A DNA stretch of 64,000 nucleotides, taken from contig JALSOH010000006.1 of NCBI GenBank assembly GCA_026986575.1, positions 186,001 through 250,000 of the forward strand. The letters run 5' to 3'. The notes beneath the pieces were generated by a model. The model was given only the letters and a program-made list of their open reading frames with translations, searched no databases and was not told where the DNA came from. Positions 35,660 to 41,634 of this stretch are shown here, one piece after another; the first letter of the stretch is position 1, and each line of letters opens with the position of its first letter. Source of the DNA: Thermoproteota archaeon (GTDB lineage: Archaea > Korarchaeota > Korarchaeia > Korarchaeales > Korarchaeaceae). Position numbers and translations under genes: made by a program.

Positions 35660-35968
35660 TCAAGTATTGTACGAATCTCCCCGTCTATCTAGGAGTTCCC
35701 TTGCCCTTTCGAGAAACTTGGTCAACGAAGGATCTGGGAGTGGATATACCCCTCCCTTCACGTGTCTATGGTGAGGGTTCGATCGAACCTCCGGGTGATG
35801 AGGTCTGTTATCCCACCATTCCTCGTAACCGCTAACGCGCAAGTAATAGCCATATGCAACTAATTTTCCACGCCAATATTCGCGGATCACTATCAAAGCC
35901 CCTTTTAAGCTAACGCGAACGCTCAGGTATTCTATCTCGTCTCCTATATTATGTTCAACTATCTCCAC
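35660..35968 (-). CDS. TumE-like (DUF6516) toxin
   Basis: The diagnostic block DNRPHHPEVRSNPHHRHV (residues about 53-70) and the preceding strands (LIVIREYWRGKLVAYGYYLRV) match the DUF6516/TumE toxin family. The annotated GTG 35968 gives 102 residues but appears to cut the N-terminus: the same frame upstream reads LKLIDKTIGKFSPVVE, which fits the family, yet there is no ATG, GTG or TTG before the stop at 36016. Either the start codon was mutated (a GTA sits where one would expect it) or the shorter form is used. The partner gene lies just upstream. Confidence 0.72.
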   Translation of the reverse strand: MEIVEHNIGDEIEYLSVRVSLKGALIVIREYWRGKLVAYGYYLRVSGYEEWWDNRPHHPEVRSNPHHRHVKGGVYPLPDPSLTKFLERARELLDRRGDSYNT

Positions 35969-36522: not shown

Positions 36523-36933
36523 TCAGTGAGATAACTCCTCAAACTCGCTTAGCAATTCCTCGCCCCTCTCAATCATCTCGATGATCTCCTGATCTGTTGT
36601 GACGGGCTTGGCCCCCCTAACTAGGCACTGGGCGGCTATGAGGGAGTCGAAGTAGTCGAGTCCCTTGGATGAAAGGAACGCCCCCAACGCAATATCTAAG
36701 GGGGAGAGAGGCTCGAGGGATCTGTCTATAACACTATTCAACAGGTGCCACACCTTGATCCTCTGATCCATGGTAAACCCCCTGCTCTTCATGAGCAAAT
36801 CGAGCTCCAAGAGGGAAGCCTGAGAGACTTTCCTGTCCTCACCGAGTTCCTCTATCATCTCAACGGAATGAGGGTGAAGCGGATCGGAGGGTCGAAGGTA
36901 GGCAATGAGGTAAACTGTGTCAATGATCTCCAC
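36523..36933 (-). CDS. vapC: VapC-type PIN-domain toxin
   Basis: The 136-residue PIN protein has metal-site residues in MEIIDTVYLIAYLRPSD, SLLELDLLMKSRG and GLDYFDSLIAAQCLVRG, and a C-terminal TTDQEI. The GTG start overlaps the AbrB-type antitoxin stop by 14 bases. All four acidic positions look present, so the RNase should be active. It is transcribed after its antitoxin from a shared promoter. Confidence 0.84.
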   Translation of the reverse strand: MEIIDTVYLIAYLRPSDPLHPHSVEMIEELGEDRKVSQASLLELDLLMKSRGFTMDQRIKVWHLLNSVIDRSLEPLSPLDIALGAFLSSKGLDYFDSLIAAQCLVRGAKPVTTDQEIIEMIERGEELLSEFEELSH

Positions 36934-37183
36934 TTAGCATCATCTCCAACATCTTGGAGGCCTCGTGATCCTCCTCCTTCCAGCCCTTGAACTTCTCATC
37001 GAAGATCTTAGAGACTTCCTCATACAGCTTGTCTAAAACTATGATTTCAGCTGAGCTATCACTGGTCACTTTCAGAAGGACTCTGCTCCCCTTCTTGATG
37101 TCCAGTTTGCGCCTTACCTCGGCGGGCAGGACCATTCTCCCACGATCATCAATAATTACCACATAACTCAAATTTCCCACCAC
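36920..37183 (-). CDS. vapB: AbrB-type antitoxin
   Basis: The 87-residue protein opens with an AbrB/MazE swapped-hairpin domain (VVIIDDRGRMVLPAEVRRKL, DIKKGSRVLLKV). An acidic, helical toxin-binding tail (LYEEVSKIFDEKF, KGWKEEDHEASKM) follows. GTG 37183 follows a TATA-like TTTATTTTTAAT at about 37198-37210, so the mRNA is likely leaderless. It should repress its own promoter together with VapC. Confidence 0.84.
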   Translation of the reverse strand: MVGNLSYVVIIDDRGRMVLPAEVRRKLDIKKGSRVLLKVTSDSSAEIIVLDKLYEEVSKIFDEKFKGWKEEDHEASKMLEMMLSGDH

Positions 37184-37267: not shown

Positions 37268-37792
37268 ATGGGGAGATCCGAGGAGGTGGGTGAACTGTAC
37301 CTCCCATGGAGCCGGGTCTCCGACTTCACATGTTATGCCTGCGGCCTCTGTTGCTACCGCTTCCGCATCCCCTTGAAGCCCCATGAAGCTATATCCATAG
37401 CTCGCACCTTCGGTCCCCAATATATAGAGTCCATCGCTGGAAAACAGTATATAAGGAAGAGGGAAGGAGAGGCCTGCCCATTTCTCATCGAGGATAATGG
37501 AGTGGGTCTATGCTATCTTCAAAGCTTGGGGATGAAGCCCTCGGCGTGTAAGATATGGCCCTTCAAGATATACAGGAATCCAGAACATGGAAGAGGTGAG
37601 GAGGCCTATTACTCTCATAAACTGGGCGAATTCTACGTTTACGTCGATCAGAGGTGCCCAGGGATCAAGCTAGGCAGACCCACACCTCGCCTCGTGAAAG
37701 CCGTGGAGGAGGCCATAGAGGTCTGGATCGGCGCCAGGAGGGATCAACTATACACTACGGCCCCCCTCTCTTCTTTAATCAAAAAGTTTTAA
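37268..37792 (+). CDS. YkgJ-type cysteine cluster protein
   Basis: The 174-residue protein has the zinc/iron-chelating domain of the YkgJ/UPF0153 family: CYACGLCCYRFRIPLKPHE (C-x2-C-x2-C-C) near residue 22, EGEACPFL near residue 68, GLCYLQSLGMKPSACKIWPF near residue 80, and a last Cys in DQRCPG. Such proteins coordinate an Fe-S cluster or zinc, and some act in protein modification or metal handling. It stands alone between the antitoxin operon and the structured RNA region. Role here unknown. Confidence 0.8.
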   Translation: MGRSEEVGELYLPWSRVSDFTCYACGLCCYRFRIPLKPHEAISIARTFGPQYIESIAGKQYIRKREGEACPFLIEDNGVGLCYLQSLGMKPSACKIWPFKIYRNPEHGRGEEAYYSHKLGEFYVYVDQRCPGIKLGRPTPRLVKAVEEAIEVWIGARRDQLYTTAPLSSLIKKF

Positions 37793-37830
37793 CAGGTTTG
37801 TGAAAATATGATACGGAAGGTTTATTAGTT

Positions 37831-37992
37831 ACTGCCGGTAAGTAACCCTTGCCGGGAAAGGGGAGGAGTAGGCGGTCGGGGTTAGCCTTGACCGCTGAAA
37901 TTCCGGTCGCCTCGAGAGGGGCGATCGGAGGTAACCCGGTCGGGAGGCCGGGGATCCCCCCCGAAAGCAATTTTCTGCAAGGCTCGCCTACT
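37831..37992 (+). ncRNA. Candidate structured non-coding RNA, family unknown
   Basis: This GC-rich stretch in a 300-base gene-free gap folds by eye into a compact structure. Helix 1 is CCGGTAAG/CTTGCCGG (37835-37842 with 37848-37855). An 8-pair closing stem AGTAGGCG/CGCCTACT (37867-37874 with 37985-37992) encloses the rest. Inside are a CGGTC/GACCG hairpin, a 12-pair hairpin at 37902-37929 capped by GAGA, and a 7-pair hairpin at 37935-37952 capped by GGGA; both caps are GNRA tetraloops. A TATA-like AAATATGATA near 37804-37813 precedes it and a T-run follows near 38004. It does not show the conserved blocks of RNase P, SRP or 5S RNA that I know. Strand is inferred from the promoter. Confidence 0.5.
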
Positions 37993-38096
37993 AACCATAG
38001 CCCTTTTCATGTTATCCCCTACAATTGCTGAGTCCGTGGGACCTCGGTGATGTTTCGATCCGTCATACAAAATCGTTTTATAATGTATTTCACTGT

Positions 38097-38324
38097 GTGA
38101 TACTGACGAGTTCGGTAGTCACGGTCCGAGTTCCGAAAGAGCTGAAAGAGAAAATGAAGAAGCTAAAAGTTAACTGGAGCAAAGAAATAAGGAAATGCAT
38201 AGAAGAGAAGGTCAAAGACTACGAACTGCTGGAGACCATAGATAGAGTTAGGAAGGAGGCCCGAAAGAGAAAGGTAAAGACGGATTCGGCTCAACTCATT
38301 GGAGAGGACAGGGAGAGCAGATGA
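38097..38324 (+). CDS. vapB: VapB-family antitoxin
   Basis: About 75 residues. The N-terminal strand and helices (VVTVRVPKELKEKMKKLKVN, WSKEIRKCIEEKVKDYELL) form a ribbon-helix-helix domain as in archaeal VapB antitoxins, and the basic tail (RKEARKRKVKTDSAQLIGED) should contact the toxin. GTG 38097 is used because a TATA box, TTTATAAT (38077-38084), lies just before it and the domain begins here. It overlaps the toxin gene by four bases; that toxin gene is interrupted. Confidence 0.75.
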   Translation: MILTSSVVTVRVPKELKEKMKKLKVNWSKEIRKCIEEKVKDYELLETIDRVRKEARKRKVKTDSAQLIGEDRESR

Positions 38325-38743
38325 AGGTTCTGAATGCATCATTTCTCGTCAAGCTAGTGCTGGATGGGGAAGGATCTGAGGAGGCCGAGAGATCCATCAA
38401 GGACTGGATATCAGGCGGTGAAAGGGTATGTACCGTCGATCTCGTGATACCAGAGTCCACTAACGCCATATGGAGGCAAAACGTTCTGGGGGAACTCGAT
38501 AGAGTGGAGTGCTAGGAGGCCGCTGAGGATTTGCTAAGCTTAGTGAGTAGGATGGAAGTGCACCAAGTGGGTGAACTGATCATGGAGGCCCAGGATATAG
38601 CGATGAGGTACGGGATCGCCGTGTATGATTCTCTTTACTTGGCTCTAGCCATCAGGAGGGGAGCGGATCTTGCTACATTCGATCGAAAGCTGAGGGATGT
38701 GGCCTCGAAAATCGGGGTGAAGACGTTCCCCATAACGGACTAG
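38321..38743 (+). pseudogene. vapC: VapC PIN toxin interrupted by an in-frame TAG
   Basis: A single frame encodes a complete PIN toxin except for one TAG at 38513-38515. Before it are MKVLNASFLVKLVLDGEG and VIPESTNAIWRQNVLGELDR; after it are EAAEDLLSLVSRMEVHQV, AVYDSLYLALAIRRG and ATFDRKLRDVASKIGV. Both halves carry PIN acidic residues. The interrupted codon is one base from AAG (Lys). The simplest reading is a nonsense mutation that disarms the toxin while the antitoxin stays intact; readthrough or a pyrrolysine codon is possible but there is no support for it here. Confidence 0.75.
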
Positions 38744-38829: not shown

Positions 38830-39459
38830 CTAGATGTACTTGAATAGGTTGAGGTAGGCCTCGGTGCTGAGCTCTATCACCCTGCCTTCGTCCACGTAGG
38901 TCACAAGGATCCCATTAAGCTTGGCCTTCCTCAGTAGCTCCATGGGTATGGGTGGATTTCGATAATACCTGTCCAGCAACTCCTTCCACTTCCTCAGCTC
39001 TATATCCGACCTTGCATGGGGCGGGGTGAGGAGGAAAGGAGGTATCTCCATTAGGTAGGTGGGGGGTGCCGCTAAATAGAATCTATCCGCGTACTGGCTA
39101 TACCTAGCGATCTTGCTGGCTATCCTCGCCCTGCAGAAACTGTCGGGATCCAAGGCATGGTCCGGAGGCACGAAGCCAGTTTCCACCTCTACTATCACCT
39201 TTCCCCCGTTCGTGCCCATTACATCGCATCTGAGGTCGTCCACTTTAACCTCTACATCCACCTGATATCCCTTTATGATCAGGTGAGCCGCTATCACCAG
39301 CTCCATGGCCGAATGATTTATCTTCACGGCCCCAGCTATGTAAAGCTCCGTCAGCCTGTCGATGAGCGGTCTCAGCCTGCCAGCCGGTGGACCCCCTCTC
39401 CCCTCTATCCTCTTGGCCAGCTCCTCTAGGTCGGACCTGAATCTCCGGGTATCCGGCAC
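38830..39459 (-). CDS. Conserved archaeal protein, possible PD-(D/E)XK nuclease fold
   Basis: The 209-residue protein has a helical N-terminus (RRFRSDLEELAKRIEGRGG). A core with alternating strands follows: KGYQVDVEVKVDDLRCDVMG, then KVIVEVETGFVPP. The spacing D...E-x-E resembles a PD-(D/E)XK catalytic centre with a preceding helix that could hold the first Glu (SAMELVIAAHL). No Lys follows the second acidic residue, so activity is uncertain. It lies in the toxin-rich island, and a role in defence or DNA repair is only a guess. No close family is recognised. Confidence 0.5.
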   Translation of the reverse strand: MPDTRRFRSDLEELAKRIEGRGGPPAGRLRPLIDRLTELYIAGAVKINHSAMELVIAAHLIIKGYQVDVEVKVDDLRCDVMGTNGGKVIVEVETGFVPPDHALDPDSFCRARIASKIARYSQYADRFYLAAPPTYLMEIPPFLLTPPHARSDIELRKWKELLDRYYRNPPIPMELLRKAKLNGILVTYVDEGRVIELSTEAYLNLFKYI

Positions 39460-39645: not shown

Positions 39646-41634
39646 ATGGCCCATAATGAAGCTCAAGGTGAGGAGAAATGCCTTAGTCTTGTACTGATCA
39701 AAGATATATTGTCGTTGAAAGAAGGCATTTCAAGGGCATTATTTGGAATAGTTGCCATCTATTACGCAAAAGTTTACTTTGAACTCTTAAAGAAAATTGT
39801 TCAAAATGGAATAAGTTTAGATATTATTTCTAAGATAATTATGGAGGTAAGAAATTTAATTTTAATAGTTGTATCAATTATATTTTTAACAGTTTTAATA
39901 AGATGTTTTATGATAAAGATAATAAGAAAGAACTTCATCTACAGAGCGGTAGTAGCAATTTATTTACATTTTTATTATGATTTTAAAATTAAATTATTGA
40001 GTTACCTTATAAACAAAATAAATACTCTAAGTAATGATGTAAGACAGTCTCAGTGGGAATCATTAAGATATTTGAAGATGTTTGTACTAACTTTGCTTGC
40101 GAGATTGATAGGACTTGGCGAATCCGAATTTATTAGAGAAGCTGCTATCTACATAGAAGAAACTAAAAAATTTAAAGAGAAATATTCATCTAATGTAAAA
40201 AAATATCTTCCTACAGTGCCTATGTCGTCAGAAGCCGTGGGAAAACCACTGCTAGTAAAAACTAATCACTTAAAGTATGGCTTCTACTGGAAGCCTTTTG
40301 ATTATACAATTTCACTTCTTTATGATGGGGCTCAACTTTTAAATATGATAAGTAATAAGGATAAGGAGAGAAGAAGAATAATATTAGAAGTGAATTTGTG
40401 TCAAGAAAAGAACGGACTTTTATCAATTTATAATAACGCAGGTAAGGTATTTATTTACGAACATTATGTTAAAAGATGTCTTGAATCGAGGGACTGTAAG
40501 AAAAAATTGGAGAGGCTAGCCAGTGAAATACATAACAGGATCAGAAAACCAATAACGTGGAAAGGAATTTATAAATTCCCTAAGGAATCACTCCCACTTC
40601 CTCTAAGATGGGCTTCAGGAGGAGTACTTCCCATAGCTTATTATAAAGAAAATTTTTGGTTTGTTCTCTTCTACCGGAACTTCTCCCCAATGTGCTGGAA
40701 TTTACCGTTGGGGGCATCAGAGACATTCAGTGAGCAGGAGAAGGTGGATATCATGTCTACCCGTGAAAGTATGGAGGAGATTTTACTAGTAGACAATGAG
40801 CCAGACAGGGGAAGTACACTTACACTAAAACCTATTTTCCCCCGAACGTCTCTGGAATTTAGATACATAAATGAATATATATGGCCAAAAGTTTATTCAT
40901 ATTTAAAAGAATATGCTAAACTCAGGCACCAACAAGACGGTTTTTCTATAAAGATACCTGAGGATCTCGGAGGGATATCAACTCCTGCTGGGGAGATATC
41001 CACTCCATATGATGTCAAAATTAAGTACAGATCCAAAAAAGAATCAATGATCCAAAATGTTTTATTTATAATAAATCCTGAGGAATTAGGAATAGAAATT
41101 ATACGACCCTTTATTTTCCTTATGAACGATGAGGACTATATACTTTGGGGGGAGATATGGAAGGGCGCATCAGCTATACCTAGAACTCCCGTACTACTTC
41201 TATCAGTTGATTATGTGCAAAATATCATCAAAAAGGGGGGAAAGTTTGGTGATAAATTGAAAGGTAACTATAAGAGATGCTCAGGATGTAGGTCGATTAT
41301 TAAAATTCCTAAGGAAAAATATGTATTATTCTACAAGGACATTCTCTTTGCCAAAGAGAGATTAGAGAACCTGAAGAGGCTGCCTAATCCGTCTTACAAA
41401 GAAAAACTTGAGATAAAAAGCCTTCGATGGCATAGTAGTTACTCAAAACAAATAGATTCGCTAATAAATTCAGCTAGAAAAGGCGGAGACCTAACTCTTA
41501 GAGAACATAGTATATTCATGAATTTCTGCCCGACTACTTGGAGATCTTTTGAAATACTTTACACTATCGAACGTTTAGATAAAAACTTTTTAGATAACAT
41601 GCTGAAAATCTGGTTTCTTGAGCGATTTCATTAA
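39646..41634 (+). CDS. Membrane-anchored Nudix-like protein, AT-rich and likely acquired
   Basis: The 662-residue protein is unlike its neighbours in base use: runs of AAA, ATA and TTT codons make the gene strongly AT-rich. Two or three membrane segments lie at about residues 28-50, 68-92 and 97-112. A Nudix-like domain follows: GGVLPIAYYK (325-334), WNLPLGASE (351-359), then E365-x7-R373-E-S-M-E-E378, which fits the second half of the Nudix box, although the first G-to-E spacing is three residues longer than usual. A C-x2-C pair (RCSGCRS) lies near residue 545. GGAGGT precedes ATG 39646. Membrane-tethered nucleotide hydrolases of this kind could act in nucleotide-signal or phage defence; this is inference. 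Confidence 0.55.
   Translation: MAHNEAQGEEKCLSLVLIKDILSLKEGISRALFGIVAIYYAKVYFELLKKIVQNGISLDIISKIIMEVRNLILIVVSIIFLTVLIRCFMIKIIRKNFIYRAVVAIYLHFYYDFKIKLLSYLINKINTLSNDVRQSQWESLRYLKMFVLTLLARLIGLGESEFIREAAIYIEETKKFKEKYSSNVKKYLPTVPMSSEAVGKPLLVKTNHLKYGFYWKPFDYTISLLYDGAQLLNMISNKDKERRRIILEVNLCQEKNGLLSIYNNAGKVFIYEHYVKRCLESRDCKKKLERLASEIHNRIRKPITWKGIYKFPKESLPLPLRWASGGVLPIAYYKENFWFVLFYRNFSPMCWNLPLGASETFSEQEKVDIMSTRESMEEILLVDNEPDRGSTLTLKPIFPRTSLEFRYINEYIWPKVYSYLKEYAKLRHQQDGFSIKIPEDLGGISTPAGEISTPYDVKIKYRSKKESMIQNVLFIINPEELGIEIIRPFIFLMNDEDYILWGEIWKGASAIPRTPVLLLSVDYVQNIIKKGGKFGDKLKGNYKRCSGCRSIIKIPKEKYVLFYKDILFAKERLENLKRLPNPSYKEKLEIKSLRWHSSYSKQIDSLINSARKGGDLTLREHSIFMNFCPTTWRSFEILYTIERLDKNFLDNMLKIWFLERFH

Follow-up and report, generated by a model that had tools for sequence, protein, structure and literature searches.

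A structured small RNA family predicted in one archaeal genus by comparative sequence analysis

Introduction

Orphan small RNAs of archaea, such as the Hgc RNAs, have been found on the basis of GC content or conservation, and the same holds for the Ssc and sRk RNAs. The Ssc and sRk RNAs of (hyper)thermophilic archaea are free-standing, GC-rich, structured and lineage-restricted; compensatory changes occur in their helices, and their function is obscure (PMC3124441). K-turns or K-loops mediate the binding of L7Ae by several small RNAs of Pyrococcus, and L7Ae binding is known for some of the Pyrococcus sRk RNAs (PMC3124441). A rare variant of the kink-turn, A2n, carries an A instead of a G at position 2n; this variant is known to fold, and a crystal structure shows it bound to archaeal L7Ae (PMC3985660).

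Like the Ssc and sRk RNAs, the RNA described here is GC-rich, structured, lineage-restricted and probably free-standing, comes from a (hyper)thermophilic archaeon and shows compensatory changes in its helices. In contrast, it has no sequence or covariance-model similarity to the Hgc, Ssc and sRk RNAs, differs from them in architecture and lineage, and is known from its sequence. The same genomes also encode archaeal RNase P RNA (RF00373) and SRP RNA (RF01857), which likewise are stable and structured, but these lie at other loci of the genus and neither family matches here. A search of the open-access literature yielded no description of the RNA, and no described non-coding RNA of Korarchaea beyond the universal ones was located there. 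Korarchaea are deep-branching archaea on which little experimental work has been done.

Results and discussion

Fold and extent of the RNA

The window is the whole stretch of 64,000 nucleotides that was analysed; it belongs to an archaeal genome of 1.91 Mb, whose genus we take to be Korarchaeum. A gap (37793-38090) without a convincing gene separates a ykgJ-like gene from a small gene on the same strand. A sequence-only reading had placed a GC-rich structured RNA of about 160 bases (37831-37992) in this gap. The GC-rich, gene-free setting was borne out. A structured RNA indeed lies there, but the real element is narrower and comprises 124 nt (Table 1).

Positions 37800-38020 of the plus strand fold with -96 kcal/mol, compared to -78.4 ± 4.7 kcal/mol for shuffled sequences (z = -3.75; one of 200 shuffles was as good). 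For the element alone (37849-37979), z is -4.85 and none of 200 shuffles was as good, which agrees with the earlier statement that the helices are beyond chance. The fold of the minus strand is not significant in the shuffle test (z = -0.78). Four divergent homologues also fold better than their shuffles, with z values from -3.9 to -6.2.

At the gathering threshold, Rfam 15 assigned no family over the whole window. A local Rfam search with E values up to 10 gave Termite-leu as the best hit, with a score of 16.4 bits (threshold 51). Neither RF00373 nor RF01857 matches at the RNA locus; the genome's copies of these RNAs are located at G000:C4:159381-159668 and G000:C6:41755-42069, respectively. 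The claim that this is a structured RNA lacking the conserved blocks of the large known RNAs was therefore upheld, given these results and the compensatory changes in the homologues described below.

Table 1. Features of the RNA and of its adjacent genes; positions refer to the window.
Feature	Position	Strand	Remarks
ykgJ-like gene, CxxCxxCC domain	37268-37792	+	PF03692, E 7.8e-6; precedes the RNA in 13/13 loci; not part of the RNA
Promoter-like GGAAGG-TTTATTA-G (BRE-like purine block and TATA box)	37815-37828	+	About 25 bases upstream of the predicted start; TTTATTA at 37821-37827
RNA element	37848-37971	+	124 nt here; alignment of 13 genomes; z = -4.85, covariation, synteny
P1a, 5' strand CUUGC	37848-37852	+	Partner 37967-37971; outermost pair absent here
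Core strand CGGGA(A/G/U)A	37853-37859	+	Opposite 37963-37966; unchanged in 13/13 save one position
P1b, 5' strand GGGGAGGA	37860-37867	+	Core G-C pairs invariant
P2 hairpin, 11 pairs, UUAG loop	37871-37896	+	Absent from the sequence-only reading
P3 hairpin, 13 pairs, GAGA loop	37901-37930	+	Outer, middle and inner parts each with compensatory changes
P4 hairpin, 7 pairs, GGGA loop	37935-37952	+	Two-sided changes
P1b, 3' strand UCCCCCCC	37955-37962	+	From the alignments
Core strand GAAA	37963-37966	+	Unchanged in 13/13
P1a, 3' strand GCAAU	37967-37971	+	From the hand alignment of 13 copies
TTTTC tract, possible terminator	37971-37975	+	Follows the closing stem
209-aa gene, convergent	38830-39459	-	After the RNA in 12/12 assembled loci; not part of the RNA

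Homologues and their distribution

In a blastn search of 61 genomes, seven homologues were found, all in the same genus and all between the same two genes, the ykgJ-like gene and the convergent 209-aa gene. A covariance model (R1) built from the window copy and these seven homologues detected no copies beyond the eight sequences it was built from. The two genes are also neighbours in further congeners. Inspection by synteny revealed a shorter, diverged RNA copy in the gaps of G009 (which we take to be Candidatus Korarchaeum cryptofilum OPF8), G012, G010 and G011, and after ykgJ in G004. The first reading of the blastn and R1 results, according to which half of the genus is without the RNA, was thus rejected. 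The RNA contig of G004 is devoid of the 209-aa gene, which lies on another contig; in G007, ykgJ is divided between two contigs. The length of the RNA is 91-95 nt in the K. cryptofilum clade, compared to 124 nt in the window. A second model (R2), built from the five diverged copies, barely detects clade 1.

The motif CGGGANAGG ... CCCCGAAA occurs at a single place in each of 13 of the 16 genomes of the genus and has no match in 13 other genomes of the phylum; a reversed control pattern gave three chance matches. The covariance and related-genome searches that the sequence-only reading had proposed as a check thus led to no Rfam family and to homologues in 13 of 16 congeners. No match to the motif was obtained in G005 (98% complete), G001 (99%) and G013 (70%). 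The distance from ykgJ to the 209-aa gene is only about 80 bases in G005. In a tree of ykgJ, G005 nests among RNA-bearing genomes, which points to a loss of the RNA there; G001 forms a long branch whose placement is unsure. In the reading favoured here, the RNA goes back to the ancestor of the genus and has been lost one or more times. It is therefore probably not essential in every lineage.

A search of about 270 other archaeal genomes with R1 and R2 under stricter filters gave no match, and there were none in viral contigs. R2 matched weakly (16.4 bits, E 0.05) at a site flanking ykgJ in another genus (L076), which is not counted among the homologues. Scanning GTDB contigs with a pattern proved insufficiently specific and gave at least 118 matches, mostly due to chance; among the matches listed, L092 alone is informative. 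With no matching Rfam family and no description in the open-access papers searched, the RNA is best classed as a new family of orphan structured small RNAs from a single archaeal genus.

Secondary structure and covariation

MAFFT misaligns the arms when applied to all 13 copies, and these were therefore aligned by hand, with every letter compared to the loci. In this alignment, the order of elements is P1a, core, P1b and the hairpins P2, P3 and P4. Paired cells amount to 93.9%, compared to 38-56% with the partners slid, and 28 of 49 pairs include changes in which both bases differ from the most frequent pair, compared to 16.4 ± 2.1 in shuffles; across clades, these counts are biased towards the structure to which the alignment was fitted. 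For this reason a test within one clade is fairer. For clade 1 (MAFFT alignment, RNAalifold structure), 94% of the cells are paired, compared to 36-59% with slid partners, and 11 pairs show two-sided changes, compared to 5.1 ± 1.6 in shuffles, a value reached in one of 500 cases. Two-sided counts are inflated by relatedness among the sequences, and so we prefer the agreement of several independent helices over the shuffle number as support.

Compensatory changes in homologues, which had been named beforehand as the test, are present across the 13 copies; they are many in P2, P3 and P4 and few in P1a. In P2, 8 of 11 pair columns show two-sided changes and a standard pair is found in all aligned cells. 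In P3, two-sided changes occur in all eight outer and inner pairs and in half of the middle pairs, and in P4 they occur in seven of nine aligned pair columns. P1a and P1b (37848-37867 with 37955-37971) form the conserved closure of the structure. P1a varies over the family as UUGC/GCAA, CUGC/GCAG and GGGGC/GCCCC, with two-sided changes in three of five pairs; its pairing is poor in G006, G014 and G002. In P1b, an A-U pair is replaced by U-A in G006, and the central G-C pairs are invariant. Covariation thus shows, within the limits of these alignments, three hairpins on a closing stem that would form a four-way junction; this support extends to P2-P4 and, in part, to P1.

The architecture proposed by the sequence-only reading was correct in the 7-pair GGGA hairpin and in the presence of the GAGA hairpin, which has 13 pairs instead of 12. 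P2 had been omitted. GNRA caps, which had been noted on two hairpins, are common in the window's clade and not family-wide: In clade 1 they are found in 8 of 8 P3 and 6 of 8 P4 loops, in clade 2 in 2 of 5 and 0 of 5, respectively. The proposed 8-pair closing stem (AGTAGGCG at 37867-37874 with CGCCTACT at 37985-37992) exists in the sequence but not in the predicted fold. It was rejected as the closing stem, as it competes with P2 and its 3' half was found on inspection of the flanks only in the window genome and in G008. In G008, this stem (AGUAGGCG/CGCCUACU) is present as AGUAGGUG/CACCUACU, changed on both sides; perhaps it is a coincidence, or an alternative fold of two close relatives. The proposed 8-pair hairpin upstream (37834-37856) is not kept in G006, G014 and G002 and is located past the promoter but ahead of the predicted start. 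It is probably not a part of the RNA.

The invariant core

The arms vary in length while the core is constant. Read as an open loop between P1a and P1b, the core consists of a 3-nt bulge CGG followed by the pairs G-A, A-A, (A/G/U)-A and A-G. In a kink-turn reading, 1b-1n would be G-A in all 13 copies and 2b-2n would be A-A instead of the standard A-G. Compared to a standard kink-turn, the core has an A for G at 2n and an extra A-G pair. The closest described counterpart is Kt-23 of Thelohania solenopsae (PMC3985660), which has an A at 2n and with which the open form of the core would share the C-stem, a 3-nt bulge (CGG here) and the subsequent G-A and A-A pairs; the key adenines 1n and 2b are unchanged in 13 of 13 copies here. 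In contrast to Kt-23, the RNA has two further non-canonical pairs before the NC stem and a competing CGGG:CCCG pairing.

This alternative pairing is possible in all 13 copies with a predicted energy that is nearly the same or lower, and would abolish the kink-turn-like loop. In constrained folding, whose energies leave out most non-canonical pairing, G010 and most clade-1 copies favour the closed form by 3-6 kcal/mol; G007, G009, G012, G011 and G004 disfavour it by 0.5-2.4 kcal/mol. In its open form, the core resembles the rare A2n kink-turn, and a mechanism that acts through it is putative.

Promoter and termini

The TATA-like element that the sequence-only reading had noted was recovered, and so was the trailing T-run (Table 1). 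Each of the 13 homologues carries a TTATTA box, preceded by a purine-rich block, at a distance of 31-34 bases upstream of the invariant GGGA. The position of the box suggests a start near the first base of P1a. The resulting distance from box to predicted start, about 25 bases in every copy, is the usual one in archaea. From the conserved sequence and spacing we infer that the RNA has its own BRE/TATA promoter. A T-rich tract follows the RNA in most clade-1 copies and is less clear in clade 2. Only a few bases separate the end of the RNA from the convergent 209-aa gene in the K. cryptofilum clade; for example, the RNA of G009 extends to 148713 and the match of the gene starts at 148720. A promoter-like site of its own, a conserved structure and an intergenic position, as expected of a free-standing archaeal small RNA, are found at this locus. 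It is very probable from these comparisons that 37848-37971 (plus strand) represents a real, independently transcribed structured RNA family.

Possible function and alternative explanations

The reading that we consider probable as a whole is that of a free-standing Korarchaeum small RNA with its own promoter, which would act in trans as a ribonucleoprotein by means of its core. It would be transcribed from the BRE/TATA promoter and fold into the closing stem P1a-core-P1b that bears three hairpins in a four-way junction. The core, CGGGARA opposite GAAA, would serve as a recognition site, plausibly with a kink-turn-like bend and with L7Ae, or a comparable RNA-binding protein of archaea, attached to it; the three arms would be free to vary in length and sequence. 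For the trans action via the core, we regard the chances as evenly balanced. That L7Ae and a kink-turn specifically are involved is rather unlikely. It is a tentative possibility that the RNA represents an undescribed class, ancestral in Korarchaeum, with a dedicated ribonucleoprotein (L7Ae on an A2n kink-turn, or a lineage-specific protein) and a role without known counterpart, perhaps together with the nuclease-like neighbour.

Genomic context could instead make the RNA a cis element of the ykgJ mRNA, such as an elaborate 3' UTR, a terminator or a processing signal, since it follows ykgJ at every locus, in the window about 60 bases past the stop codon. We consider this improbable: The RNA is separated from ykgJ by a conserved promoter-like box whose distance from the core is nearly constant, ykgJ is also present where there is no such RNA (G005, G001 and other genera), and a terminator needs neither a four-way junction nor an unchanged core. 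The gene on the other side adjoins the RNA in 12 of 12 assembled loci, with the thirteenth genome (G004) having it elsewhere, and the congeners without the RNA either are devoid of the gene (G001, G013) or contain a frameshifted one (G005). This would fit a two-part system of the RNA and a nuclease. However, joint loss can be explained by physical linkage alone, and the family of the 209-aa protein (the window gene, L034, L040 and L240-L253) is also present in 19 genomes outside the phylum; searches with R1 and R2 (R2 with filters off) found no RNA beside the gene in 14 loci outside the genus. The occurrence of the family in other archaea without the RNA makes an obligate pair unlikely. Moreover, the protein is a putative PD-(D/E)XK-like nuclease judging from its invariant E, D and ExE residues; searches of Pfam, NCBIfam and PDB gave nothing significant. 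On balance, a two-part system is quite improbable.

A small invariant core within a variable scaffold is typical of riboswitches and self-cleaving ribozymes. Most loci, however, have no same-strand gene downstream; a same-strand antitoxin-toxin pair follows only in the window and in some close relatives. The next conserved gene has the opposite orientation, which excludes the RNA as its leader. With no match to a ribozyme or riboswitch in Rfam, such a role is very improbable. Archaea commonly contain guide RNAs for modification, of either the H/ACA or the C/D type, whose kink-turns are bound by L7Ae (PMC3124441). By inspection, the arms of the RNA are continuous helices with no pseudouridylation pocket and no ACA after a hairpin, and the boxes C (RUGAUGA) and D (CUGA) are absent from its flanks. 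Rfam was empty even at E values up to 10. The missing guide features largely refute this assignment, which can hardly be entertained. Finally, a GC-rich sequence readily folds, and the structure might be due to chance without any biological RNA. The shuffle control, the 13 homologues, the compensatory changes and the promoter spacing all contradict this, and the probability that remains is negligible; as far as sequence allows, chance is refuted.

The favoured free-standing small RNA is single-copy and conserved in position, and combines strong covariation with a nearly unchanged 11-base core, which makes it a target for probing and pull-down experiments. Its core is a possible natural instance of a rare kink-turn variant. 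Furthermore, such RNAs can outrun detection by blastn and covariance models within a single genus, while synteny still locates them.

Other genes at the locus

Between the RNA and the 209-aa gene of the window, an antitoxin-like ORF precedes a gene for a VapC-like PIN toxin (38321-38743, plus strand). An in-frame stop divides the latter into two ORFs, and its C-terminal part has a PIN match with E 9e-8; the homologous ORF is intact and comprises 140 aa in L002 and L003. A second toxin-antitoxin pair, consisting of a PIN domain and a MazE-type antitoxin, lies immediately upstream of ykgJ (36523-37183, minus strand), and the window also contains a TumE-like toxin (35660-35968, minus strand). The frameshift of the 209-aa gene in G005 (L074), the genome that lost the RNA, may be a sequencing error. 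An ORF of 662 aa (39646-41634, plus strand) without a Pfam match separates the 209-aa gene from pyruvate kinase in the window; in L005 (G003), the pyruvate kinase ORF directly follows the 209-aa gene.
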